This document shows, one piece after another, positions 46,234 through 51,930 of a DNA stretch of 64,000 nt. This DNA comes from Chloroflexota bacterium (GTDB taxonomy: Bacteria; Chloroflexota; Anaerolineae; Anaerolineales; Anaerolineaceae), in NCBI GenBank assembly GCA_012522475.1, contig JAAYKH010000029.1:1-64000 (forward strand), written 5' to 3'. The notes below the pieces were generated by a model that was not told the DNA's origin, made no database searches, and saw only the letters and a list, made by a program, of their open reading frames with translations. Position numbers and translations under genes: made by a program. Numbering within the stretch: the stretch's first letter is position 1; each line of letters begins with the position of its first letter.

Positions 46234-46327
46234 CGGGAATGGATGGGAGTCGAACCCACCACGGCTCGCAACGCGACCCGACACCGATTTTGAAGACCGG
46301 GAGGCCCACCGGGACCTAACCACTCCC
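46234..46327 (-). tRNA. selC: tRNA-Sec (selenocysteine, anticodon TCA)
   Basis: A 94-nt tRNA with the special selenocysteine form: 8-bp acceptor GGGAGTGG/CCATTCCC, 6-bp D-stem AGGTCC/GGGCCT with a 4-base loop CGGT, anticodon loop CTTCAAA (anticodon TCA), a long variable arm (CGGGTCGC/GCGAGCCG, one mismatch) and T-arm GTGGG-TTCGACT-CCCAT. Discriminator G; CCA not encoded. This implies that UGA is read as selenocysteine in some genes of this organism; selA, selB and selD are not in the window. Confidence 0.93.
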
Positions 46328-49215: not shown

Positions 49216-49947
49216 TTAATTTGGTTGCCAAACCTGATACAACGCGAGCCTGTCATTTCTTCCATCAGAATAAAAAGTTTCACAAACTTTGAACCCGCCT
49301 CTGACAGCTAGTTCACCCAGGCTGTTTTCTGTGAAAGTATGAATGTAGCGTATGCCAGGTGATTCGCCGGCACGCCAGTCCAGCAAAACATCCCCTTCGT
49401 CAACATCACCTGGTTCAAGTTCTACAGTTGACCAGGGCAAAATGCGCGCCCGGAGACGAGCGCTATTCTGCCACTGCCATACGGATACTGCGACCAGTCC
49501 GTGAGGAGCGATTAATTTTCTGAAGGCCTGGATGGTTTGAGCGCGCAGTTCAGCGCCTGGCAGGTGGTGTAGCACGGCGAACGCAACCAGATAATCGTAA
49601 TTTGTCGGGGAAAGAAACTTTTGCCAACCCAGCTCAGCCAGGTCGATCAACTGGAATGAAAACGCCCCGGACGGTGGCTGGTTCAGCAGACGTTGGGCAT
49701 CAGCGAGTAAGCCGGCGCTCAGGTCAACGCCGAGGTATTGCCCTGAAAAACCCTTTGCTATCAAATGCCTTGCCAGGGTGCCGTTGCCACAGCCGACATC
49801 AACAACGCTGGCCTTGGGTAGAATTTTTTGAGCGATGCGGCGCACGCCCGGCTGGACCTGGTGTCGGGTTGTACTGAATGACTCCGAGTGCTGTTGATAA
49901 AAATGATCGTTGATGGCGAGCAACCTCGCTTGTATATTTGGGTCCAT
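49216..49947 (-). CDS. Trm9/ALKBH8-like SAM-dependent methyltransferase
   Basis: A 243-residue class I methyltransferase. The AdoMet motif V-V-D-V-G-C-G-N-G lies at 48-56. What marks it as Trm9-like is the N-terminal segment F-S-T-T-R-H near 24-29 (Trm9 has F-S-x-T-R), V-L-H-H in the middle, and the end I-R-Y-I-H-T-F-T-E-N-S-L-G-E-L, like the H-x-F-x-x-x-E-L-E of Trm9. Eukaryotic Trm9 and ALKBH8 methylate cm5U34 to mcm5U34 in tRNA. The divergent neighbour at 50314 is elp3, which makes cm5U, so the two may act in one pathway. The Trm112 partner needed in eukaryotes is not visible here. Confidence 0.65.
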   Translation of the reverse strand: MDPNIQARLLAINDHFYQQHSESFSTTRHQVQPGVRRIAQKILPKASVVDVGCGNGTLARHLIAKGFSGQYLGVDLSAGLLADAQRLLNQPPSGAFSFQLIDLAELGWQKFLSPTNYDYLVAFAVLHHLPGAELRAQTIQAFRKLIAPHGLVAVSVWQWQNSARLRARILPWSTVELEPGDVDEGDVLLDWRAGESPGIRYIHTFTENSLGELAVRGGFKVCETFYSDGRNDRLALYQVWQPN

Positions 49948-50313
49948 AATCGTATTTCTATAAATTTGCTTTATTCAAGCTGGGTTCGGGCCAAATCCAT
50001 GGGACAACCAGTCCAGATAAAACCAATCAAGGACCCCAAATATCGATCTAATCAGGGTGTAACAACCCCAGCGTTTCATTCAATCGCTCCAGATGATTAA
50101 TAATTGCCTGTGTTGATTATACTGGTAATTAAAGGTCGGTCGTCAGCTCGCAGCTTTATTTTGCGTTGACCAATCGTTCAGGGTTGCAAGGGGGCTTAGC
50201 TTGGATTCAGCTCCCAACAATCAAGATATCAACTTGGTATCGCTGACGGTCTTTCAAGAGCAGCTTTGGTATAGTTTTGCCCGGTGAATATTTACTGAGT
50301 ACAATTAATGCTG
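49948..50313. other. Divergent intergenic region between Trm9-like gene and elp3
   Basis: About 366 bp. On the plus side it holds the elp3 promoter (50277-50305). On the minus side a TTGAAT and a TACGAT (18-bp spacer) lie just before the Trm9-like start, too close for a normal leader. The remainder shows no supported feature. Confidence 0.5.
50277..50305 (+). promoter_or_regulatory. Promoter of elp3
   Basis: TTGCCC (50277-50282), 17-bp spacer, TACAAT (50300-50305). The ATG at 50314 lies eight bases after the -10, so the mRNA probably begins at or very near the start codon. Confidence 0.5.
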
Positions 50314-51930
50314 ATGAAAGCAGAAAGTTGGAAGAAAAAACGAGATTATACTCAGGCAGAGCTGGACTTGGCACGCCAAATCTTGAAAGCTGTCAAAGCC
50401 GGGGAAGACCTGCATACAGCCCAGCGTGAACACCCCAAACCGGAAGGGGGTGGTTTCGTTCCCAAACACGCTTTAGTAGCGGTTTACACACACATGGTGG
50501 AAAGCGGCGCATGGCCTGAAGACGAAACCTTGCTGGCAAAAATTCGTATGAAACCAACACGGACCCTTTCCGGTGTGACCACGGTGACCGTTTTGACAAA
50601 TTTTCACCCCTGCCCGGGGGAATGTATTTTTTGTCCGCAGGAAGATCAGCTGCCTCAAAGCTATCTGAGCGAGGAACCCGGCGCAAAGCGCGGCGTTCAA
50701 AACCAATTTGACCCCTATTTGCAAACCAGCAACCGGATTAAAGCCCTGGCTGCCGTTGGTCACCCCACGGATAAAATTGAGCTATTGATTTTAGGGGGCA
50801 GCTTTTGTGCTTACCCCAAGGATTATCAGGCCTGGTTTGTTCAACGCTGTTTTGATGCGATGAATGCAGGCGAACCCGGGGTGGAGCAGGATTCCCAGTC
50901 GCTTGAGGAAGCGCAAACGATCAACGTTCACGCGGCACACCGCAATGTGGGTTTGGTGATTGAAACCCGACCCGACCTGGTTGAGCAGGAGTCGTTGCCC
51001 TGGTATCGCCATCTGGGTGTGACCAAAGTCCAGCTGGGCGCGCAGAGTTTGGATGATCGGATCCTGCGGCTTAATCAGCGCGGACACACGGCGCAGCAAA
51101 CCCTGGAAGCTACGGCGTTGCTGCGGGCAGCAGGGTTTAAGGTTGTATTGCACTGGATGCCAAACCTCTTGGGGGCAGCACCGGAAAGTGATCGTGAAGA
51201 TTTCTTACGCTTATGGGGCAATGGTACTTACTGTCCAGATGAGATCAAAATTTACCCCTGTCAGCTTTTAGAGGGCACGGAATTGTATCAACGCTGGCTT
51301 AAAGGGGACTATCAGCCCTACCCAGAGGAAACGCTGCTGGACCTGATTGCGGATATTAAAACCACCGTTCCCCGCTATTGCCGGATCAATCGTGTCATCC
51401 GGGATATACCCTCTACTTATGTGGTTGCTGGCAATAAGAACACCAGTTTACGTCAGGACATTCAGCAAGAAATGAGGCGGCGCGGCACCCGGTGCGAGTG
51501 CATCCGCTGCCGAGAAATCCGCAAAAAACGCGTGAGCACAGAAAAACTCGACCTGCACGACCTGGTGTATCACCCCGCTCATGCGGAAGAACATTTTCTA
51601 TCCTACGATACCCCGGATGATCATCTGGCCGGTTTTTTGCGGTTATCCTTACCCGAAGATACCCATTTCACGAGCATGACTGATTTGGCGGGAGCAGCGA
51701 TCATCCGCGAAGTGCATGTGTATGGGCAATCTTTAGCGTTGGGCGAGGAACGCTCCGGCGTGGCGCAACACAGCGGTTTGGGTACCCAATTGATCCTCGC
51801 AGCAGAAGAGATCGCCCGGAAGGCAGGCTACCAGAGAATGGCGGTAATTGCCGCGGTGGGCACTCGAGCGTATTATGTTGAAAGGGGTTACGAAATGGGG
51901 ACAGCTTATATGGTTAAATCGTTGGATTAA
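50314..51930 (+). CDS. elp3: Elp3-like tRNA uridine-34 carboxymethyl-modifying enzyme
   Basis: A 538-residue protein that uses acetyl-CoA and a radical to add carboxymethyl to U34 of tRNA. The radical SAM cluster is C-P-G-E-C-I-F-C at 100-107, after T-N-F-H-P, and the acetyltransferase (GNAT) domain fills the C-terminal 120 residues, with G-L-G-T-Q-L-I near the acetyl-CoA loop and the family ending Y-Y-x-x-x-G-Y-x. I chose the ATG at 50314; an ATG six bases upstream (50308) lies inside the likely untranscribed stretch. No ribosome-binding site is seen. Bacterial Elp3 is present in only some phyla; its neighbour is a Trm9-like methyltransferase. Confidence 0.92.
   Translation: MKAESWKKKRDYTQAELDLARQILKAVKAGEDLHTAQREHPKPEGGGFVPKHALVAVYTHMVESGAWPEDETLLAKIRMKPTRTLSGVTTVTVLTNFHPCPGECIFCPQEDQLPQSYLSEEPGAKRGVQNQFDPYLQTSNRIKALAAVGHPTDKIELLILGGSFCAYPKDYQAWFVQRCFDAMNAGEPGVEQDSQSLEEAQTINVHAAHRNVGLVIETRPDLVEQESLPWYRHLGVTKVQLGAQSLDDRILRLNQRGHTAQQTLEATALLRAAGFKVVLHWMPNLLGAAPESDREDFLRLWGNGTYCPDEIKIYPCQLLEGTELYQRWLKGDYQPYPEETLLDLIADIKTTVPRYCRINRVIRDIPSTYVVAGNKNTSLRQDIQQEMRRRGTRCECIRCREIRKKRVSTEKLDLHDLVYHPAHAEEHFLSYDTPDDHLAGFLRLSLPEDTHFTSMTDLAGAAIIREVHVYGQSLALGEERSGVAQHSGLGTQLILAAEEIARKAGYQRMAVIAAVGTRAYYVERGYEMGTAYMVKSLD

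Follow-up and report, generated by a model that had tools for sequence, protein, structure and literature searches.

A Trm9-like methyltransferase gene divergent from elp3 in two Chloroflexota classes: a candidate bacterial pathway to mcm5U34

Archaeal Elp3 makes 5-carboxymethyluridine at the wobble position (cm5U34) of transfer RNA (tRNA) in vitro, as stated in two reports (PMC13315578, PMC7663514), and the archaeal Elp3 and Trm9 genes are described as clustered in Sulfolobus solfataricus (PMC2584109, PMC5372719). Yeast Trm9 is described as inactive without Trm112 (PMC6382703). Here, we analysed a pair of divergent genes, elp3 and a gene for a Trm9-like methyltransferase, in a window of 64,000 nucleotides (the whole stretch of DNA under study; positions 1 to 64,000 of contig JAAYKH010000029.1, assembly GCA_012522475.1) from a Chloroflexota bacterium of the order Anaerolineales. 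The pair may form a bacterial route to 5-methoxycarbonylmethyluridine (mcm5U34).

The accessible text of a 2020 review names Dehalococcoides alone as a bacterial clade with Elp3 and states that direct evidence for modifications of the cm5U34 type (xcm5U34) in Elp3-bearing bacteria is lacking (PMC7663514). In the corresponding parts of other reviews, Trm112-dependent methyltransferases are said to have no bacterial relatives (2017; PMC5372719), the mcm5U-type modifications of Trm9 are called exclusive to eukaryotes (2019; PMC6382703), and mcm5U is placed in archaea and eukaryotes and not in bacteria (2020; PMC7694415). No bacterial Trm9 and no Elp3–methyltransferase pair in Chloroflexota was found described in the titles and abstract openings of the papers that searches of an open-access library listed. 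The kind of pathway is known; the bacterial version, the conserved divergent pairing and the exclusion of MnmG appear to be new within the literature searched.

The window enzyme has in common with the Trm9–Trm112 system of yeasts and with the ALKBH8 domain the class I fold, the motifs TR, HH, D...W and RYxH, a two-stranded lid (predicted here) and a functional tie to Elp3. It differs in being bacterial, in being divergent from a stand-alone Elp3, in its low identity to Trm9 (24%) and in the replacement of Y243; ALKBH8 itself was not compared. Judged by description only, the archaeal genes likewise pair a stand-alone Elp3 and a Trm9-like protein encoded in the same cluster, whereas the Chloroflexota pair is bacterial and has a conserved divergent arrangement. 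The usual bacterial MnmE/MnmG pathway likewise modifies C5 of the wobble U34, with other enzymes. The pair occupies the following positions of the window:

49216..49947, minus strand: methyltransferase open reading frame (ORF), 243 amino acids (aa); Trm9-like class I enzyme dependent on S-adenosylmethionine (SAM), proposed cm5U34 carboxyl methyltransferase
50308..51930, plus strand: elp3 ORF, 540 aa; radical SAM and GNAT domains, identified by TIGR01211, PDB entry 5l7j and catalytic residues
49948..50307: intergenic region of 360 bp that separates the two start codons; presumed to hold the promoters of the divergent genes

Both ORFs lie where the original prediction, made from the letters of the window alone, had placed them and are divergent as it stated; the distance between them is 360 bp.

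Elp3 and the divergent pairing in Chloroflexota genomes

The elp3 product matched TIGR01211 with 502.8 bits (curated cut-off 350), and its best PDB match was 5l7j (389.8 bits), which we take to be the Elp3 of Dehalococcoides mccartyi (DmcElp3). DmcElp3 has 459 aa and is without the N-terminal extension that the window Elp3 carries. K156, K278, E468 and Y522 of the window Elp3 correspond to K77, K193, E386 and Y441, which are described as residues of the acetyl-coenzyme A (acetyl-CoA) pocket in the numbering of the Dehalococcoides enzyme (PMC6367351). The CxxxCxxC motif is also retained (C102, C106 and C109, taken as the cluster cysteines), and three more cysteines fit a zinc site. The Elp3 call of the original prediction was thus borne out, the protein being above the family cut-off with its catalytic residues retained.

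To follow the pair in relatives, a sample of 61 genomes was used, the window's own included. A strong methyltransferase match was found in 55 genomes and a clear Elp3 in 57 (55 over the cut-off and two fragmentary), and both were present in 54. The two genes were on one contig in 44 of these 54 genomes and on different contigs in the other 10. They were divergent and at most 2.3 kb apart in 43, that is, in 43 of the 44 genomes with both genes on the same contig. Seen in 43 of the 54 genomes that encode both proteins (the window's own included), the pairing of elp3 with the methyltransferase gene is not due to chance, and the linkage that was to be checked in relatives is conserved.

A second sample comprised 151 genomes from across the phylum, 28 of which encoded Elp3. 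The window-type methyltransferase (at least 194 bits) was found in 14 genomes, all Elp3-positive, and the next score was 63.9 bits. It was the divergent neighbour of elp3 in 12 genomes and lay on another contig in two. The other 14 Elp3-positive genomes encoded a different methyltransferase, which was divergent from and adjoining elp3 in 14/14. Counting both families, a divergent methyltransferase gene stood beside elp3 in 26 of the 28 Elp3-positive genomes. One of the genomes with the second family encodes an Elp3 that matched 5l7j over 458 residues with 985 bits, and owing to this near-identity the group includes Dehalococcoides; the remaining genomes are presumably Dehalococcoidia. The elp3 gene nearly identical to that of D. 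mccartyi (locus L068) has a member of this second Trm9-like family as its divergent neighbour, and its product belongs to the same enzyme family as the window Elp3, with 203 identical positions. That two Trm9-like families so unlike each other occur in one and the same arrangement speaks most strongly for a role in common with Elp3.

The second family was also followed in named genomes, where 176 loci were confirmed and the best 80 of them inspected. These were mostly titled Dehalococcoidia, Dehalococcoidales or Chloroflexi, and none of these best 80 of 176 loci from this one scan was titled archaeal. Elp3 was encoded within the stretch in 73 loci (72 divergent and one tandem), and three of the seven loci without it have at most 31 bases upstream. 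Three loci with the Dehalococcoidia-type methyltransferase (L114, L131 and L154) were titled as Deltaproteobacteria metagenome-assembled genomes and are probably mislabelled.

The usual bacterial U34 pathway was expected to be absent. MnmG was over the cut-off in 0 of the 61 relatives, which agrees with this expectation for MnmG, as MnmE was not searched for. Weak matches to the MnmG profile (at most 68.4 bits) occurred in 48 of the 61 and presumably represent TrmFO and other flavoproteins. In the 151-genome sample, Elp3 was found in 28 genomes and MnmG in 65 (64 over the cut-off), and the two co-occurred in none (Fisher p 1.6e-8, uncorrected for kinship). Neither Elp3 nor MnmG was found in 58 of the 151 genomes at the limits used.

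Resemblance of the methyltransferase to Trm9

The window methyltransferase matched Pfam Methyltransf_23 with 60.1 bits and is a class I SAM methyltransferase. No NCBIfam model reached its cut-off; the best was CpaM, with 52.1 of the 180 bits needed and over residues 27-155 only. A phmmer search of the PDB with the single sequence placed 5cm2, the entry for Trm9 of Yarrowia lipolytica, narrowly first (E 9.8e-6; next 3sm3, 1.1e-5). The A1 profile, built from 23 members of the window-type family, gave 54.6 bits for 5cm2 and 48.4 bits for 3sm3. Its alignment with 5cm2 spanned positions 25-224, whereas those with the two matches that followed ended at 161 and 155. The profile search suggested by the original prediction had Trm9 as its top PDB match.

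In the alignment with Trm9, R28 corresponded to TR, H127-H128 to HH, D186...W191 to D...VPW, and R200-Y201-x-H203 to RYYH. The codons of these residues in the window are as follows:

49864..49866, minus strand: R28 codon (in FSTTR), placed by the alignments
49564..49569, minus strand: H127-H128 codons, placed by the alignments
49339..49392, minus strand: C-terminal lid hairpin, residues 186-203 (D186...W191, R200-Y-x-H203), placed by the alignments and predicted strands

The Trm9 hallmarks that the original prediction had read in the neighbour (FSTTR, HH, D...W and RYxH) were all present and conserved over 41 loci from 40 genomes: R28, D186, W191, R200 and Y201 in 41/41, H127 in 40/41, and H203 in 39/41. 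R28, H127(-H128) and R200 presumably correspond to R29, H115(-H116) and R241 of yeast Trm9. According to a review, R29, H115, R241, Y243 and N271 of yeast Trm9 are needed for tRNA binding and activity (PMC5372719). Three of these five functional residues are retained in the window family (R28, H127 and R200). A motif pattern defined post hoc from the two families was found in 15 of the 23 window-type members, in all 14 Dehalococcoidia members and in Trm9, and in none of the 64 ORFs from control loci; it was not used as evidence.

An AlphaFold model of the window methyltransferase (36-row alignment) had a mean predicted local distance difference test score (pLDDT) of 79.7. It contained a two-stranded hairpin at residues 186-203 (strands 186-193 and 196-203), which bears D...W and RYxH. 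The predicted hairpin is consistent with the Trm9 lid as described in a review (PMC5372719). VIA-align superposed the model on 5cm2 with a Z score of 18.7 and a root-mean-square deviation (rmsd) of 2.4 Å over 173 of 184 residues, at 24% identity. None of the other entries among the 50 matches listed had an rmsd as low or an identity as high as 5cm2. The model of the Dehalococcoidia methyltransferase (pLDDT 87.6) also had a two-stranded hairpin at the position of the Trm9 lid and was superposed on 5cm2 with a Z score of 21.2 (top score 21.7) and 1.7 Å at 26% identity, and 5cm2 again came first in both rmsd and identity among the 50 matches listed.

The profile of the Dehalococcoidia family gave 78.6 bits for 5cm2 and 75.2 bits for the next match, which covered the core only. 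With the Yarrowia Trm9 fragment as the query against the 151 genomes, the 14 Dehalococcoidia neighbours ranked 1-14, and two neighbours from the window's order ranked 15-16. In the Dehalococcoidia family, the Y243 position holds a Tyr (Y174) without exception, and an Asn close to the C-terminus (RNIC) is likewise invariant. The two methyltransferase families aligned in hhalign with E 1.1e-26 at 20% identity. By sequence comparison, the Dehalococcoidia family is the better match to Trm9 of the two. Neither this second family nor the occurrence of the pairing in two classes was visible from the window on which the original prediction was based.

Proposed pathway and alternative explanations

We propose, with a probability of roughly 70%, that the two genes constitute a bacterial wobble-uridine pathway that replaces MnmE/MnmG, Elp3 making cm5U34 and its neighbour mcm5U34. 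Elp3 would add a carboxymethyl group to C5 of U34 by radical SAM chemistry, with acetyl-CoA as a substrate. The neighbour would bind the anticodon loop through its lid and the R28/H127/R200 cluster, by analogy with Trm9, and would move the methyl group of SAM onto the side-chain carboxylate, giving the methyl ester as Trm9 and ALKBH8 do in eukaryotes. The substrate, the product and the tRNA targets are inferred, as are any further 2-thiolation and a possible partnership with Trm112. A little less firmly, we lean towards the wider statement that two Chloroflexota classes swapped MnmE/MnmG for an Elp3 plus Trm9-like mcm5U34 pathway of the kind found in eukaryotes and archaea, which would be free of Trm112 in Dehalococcoides. 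For the bacterial two-step pathway of the original prediction, the linkage, the Trm9 profile match and the lack of MnmG matches speak in its favour, whereas kinship with Trm9 was not cleanly separated from kinship with generic methyltransferases.

A number of observations weigh against the proposed pathway. In one genome (G031), elp3 and the methyltransferase gene are 641 kb apart. Among the 61 genomes, Elp3 was found without the methyltransferase in 3, the methyltransferase without Elp3 in 1, and neither in 3. No methyltransferase of the window type was found among the ORFs around Elp3 in G027, G031, G033, G058, G146 and G193, and therefore the linkage has truly been lost in some lineages. 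A divergent member of the family (L051, from G193), encoded away from elp3, lacks both H127 and H203. As for Trm112, the window's genome encodes a protein of 73 aa elsewhere (L079:2741-2962), and a short frame (at most 127 aa) with a Trm112 match was found in 13 of the 14 window-type genomes and in 4 of the 14 second-family genomes (G132, G163, G179 and G187). The eight genomes with the Dehalococcoides-type family (f24) had no short Trm112 over the cut-off, only long-frame or weak matches, and in this they differ from the Trm9–Trm112 system; the enzymes of Dehalococcoides either need no partner or have one that escapes recognition. The Trm112 family was over the cut-off in 7 of 14 control genomes and is common, so that its presence says little.

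Two residues of Trm9 belong to the same set of observations. The Y243 position is occupied by I202 in the window and by V, A, L or T in the other loci of the 41, and because of this replacement the protein is called Trm9-like and not Trm9. For yeast N271, the window's family shows no Asn at a clear place, the C-terminus of 5cm2 being outside the alignments. The methyltransferase might act after Elp3 and make another product, by methylating the modified wobble nucleoside or a neighbouring position without forming the ester. The linkage with Elp3 ties the enzyme to the U34 pathway and not to the ester, and both the change at the Y243 position and the identity of only 20% between the two families leave room for a change of substrate. 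However, the window family has a C-terminal module of the Trm9 type and retains R/H/R, and the Dehalococcoidia family has kept the Tyr at the Y243 position and the Asn near the C-terminus. We consider such a change of product unlikely.

The remaining observations on the same side concern kinship with Trm9. In hhalign over the whole domain, the window family scored 104.2 with Trm9 and 84-148 with 12 control methyltransferases, a set made up mostly of its best matches from other genomes, with paralogues for the rest. The whole-domain comparison was therefore rejected as proof of Trm9 kinship, the controls scoring equally high. With the Trm9 fragment as the query against the 151 genomes, the neighbour of elp3 was the best match in only 7 of the 14 window-type genomes; it was second in 2 and was not among the matches listed in 5. 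In the window's own genome, another methyltransferase outscored the neighbour (23.5 versus 20.1 bits), and with the Dehalococcoidia profile against the 61 genomes, generic methyltransferases matching over the core only were often above the neighbour among the matches listed. For the window model, METTL6 reached a Z score of 20.5 and Trm9 18.7. With the window model, the rank of Trm9 was 9 in Foldseek and 20 when ordered by Z; with the Dehalococcoidia model, it was 5 and 14, respectively. The class I fold is too common for fold rank to be decisive, and it was rejected as a discriminator. A quick tree of 55 rows (12 of the 23 window-type members, 10 of the 14 Dehalococcoidia members, Trm9 and 32 controls) had long branches and did not place Trm9 and the two families in one group, although such a grouping was not rejected (p-AU 0.347). 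On account of the whole-domain controls, the fold rank and the tree, we use the label Trm9-like and not Trm9 orthologue. The original prediction had named closer similarity to another methyltransferase group as the counter-case; no such group was found, yet the case is not cleanly excluded, as the whole-domain scores of generic methyltransferases are just as high.

These results would fit a generic small-molecule or protein methyltransferase that lies beside elp3 by chance and resembles Trm9 only in the class I fold. The C-terminal module was tested because the region after the SAM-binding core distinguishes Trm9. The Dehalococcoidia profile of this module gave 24.7 bits for Trm9, 16.0 bits for the window and 11.6-26.8 bits for the 23 A1 members, while the maximum for 32 control methyltransferases was 14.2 bits and the next 8.5 bits; 21 of the 23 members were above every control. 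The reverse profile, from the window family, gave 15.0 bits for Trm9, 13.9-27.9 bits for 14 Dehalococcoidia members and at most 8.9 bits for the controls (29 and 25 of the 32 controls, respectively, reached the report limit in the two tests). At the level of sequence, it is only this module that separates the window family from generic methyltransferases. A chance neighbour is also at odds with the divergent pairing, which is conserved in two classes and involves two families of little similarity, and with the occurrence of window-type homologues in 14 of the 151 genomes, all of them Elp3-positive, and we regard it as improbable.

CmoM, too, belongs to the class I methyltransferases and forms a methyl ester on a carboxylate at the wobble position, but a CmoM-like enzyme that converts uridine 5-oxyacetic acid (cmo5U34) to its methyl ester (mcmo5U34), with adjacency to elp3 reflecting only a shared wobble function, was rejected as very improbable, its substrate lacking: CmoB, the maker of cmo5U, was matched in 0 of the 61 genomes at E ≤ 1e-20, with a positive E. 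coli control.

Neighbouring genes and significance

A promoter consensus scan of the 360-bp gap gave 4 matches against 3.1 expected, which is not above chance. In five genus relatives (L206-L210), an ORF of 369-386 aa with the motif HEFGHAL lies between elp3 and the methyltransferase gene on the strand of the latter; it presumably resembles an M50-type metalloprotease, and the gap in the window is too small for it. A tRNA-Sec (UCA) gene lies at 46234-46327 on the minus strand of the window, about 3 kb from the methyltransferase gene. It was also found within 4 kb of the methyltransferase gene in 4/4 genus relatives with 19 kb of sequence each, at these positions:

L206:15821-15914, tRNA-Sec
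L207:16937-17032, tRNA-Sec
L208:4807-4901, tRNA-Sec
L209:4647-4742, tRNA-Sec

The fifth stretch (L210) has only 6.8 kb and shows no tRNA-Sec. In mammals, selenoprotein expression is described as requiring mcm5U in tRNA-Sec (PMC7694415). The tRNA-Sec may be a tempting substrate of the methyltransferase, or its position may reflect plain synteny at the genus level.

The gene pair points to a candidate enzyme and adds the window's order, with Elp3 over the cut-off in 55 of 61 genomes, to the bacteria known to encode Elp3. It also shows that Elp3 and MnmG exclude each other in the genomes sampled, and it gives the proposed product as a defined nucleoside that can be measured. If the proposed pathway is true, it would be the first Elp3 plus Trm9-like mcm5U34 pathway in bacteria, and in Dehalococcoides it would run without Trm112. 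It would also answer what bacterial Elp3 is for.

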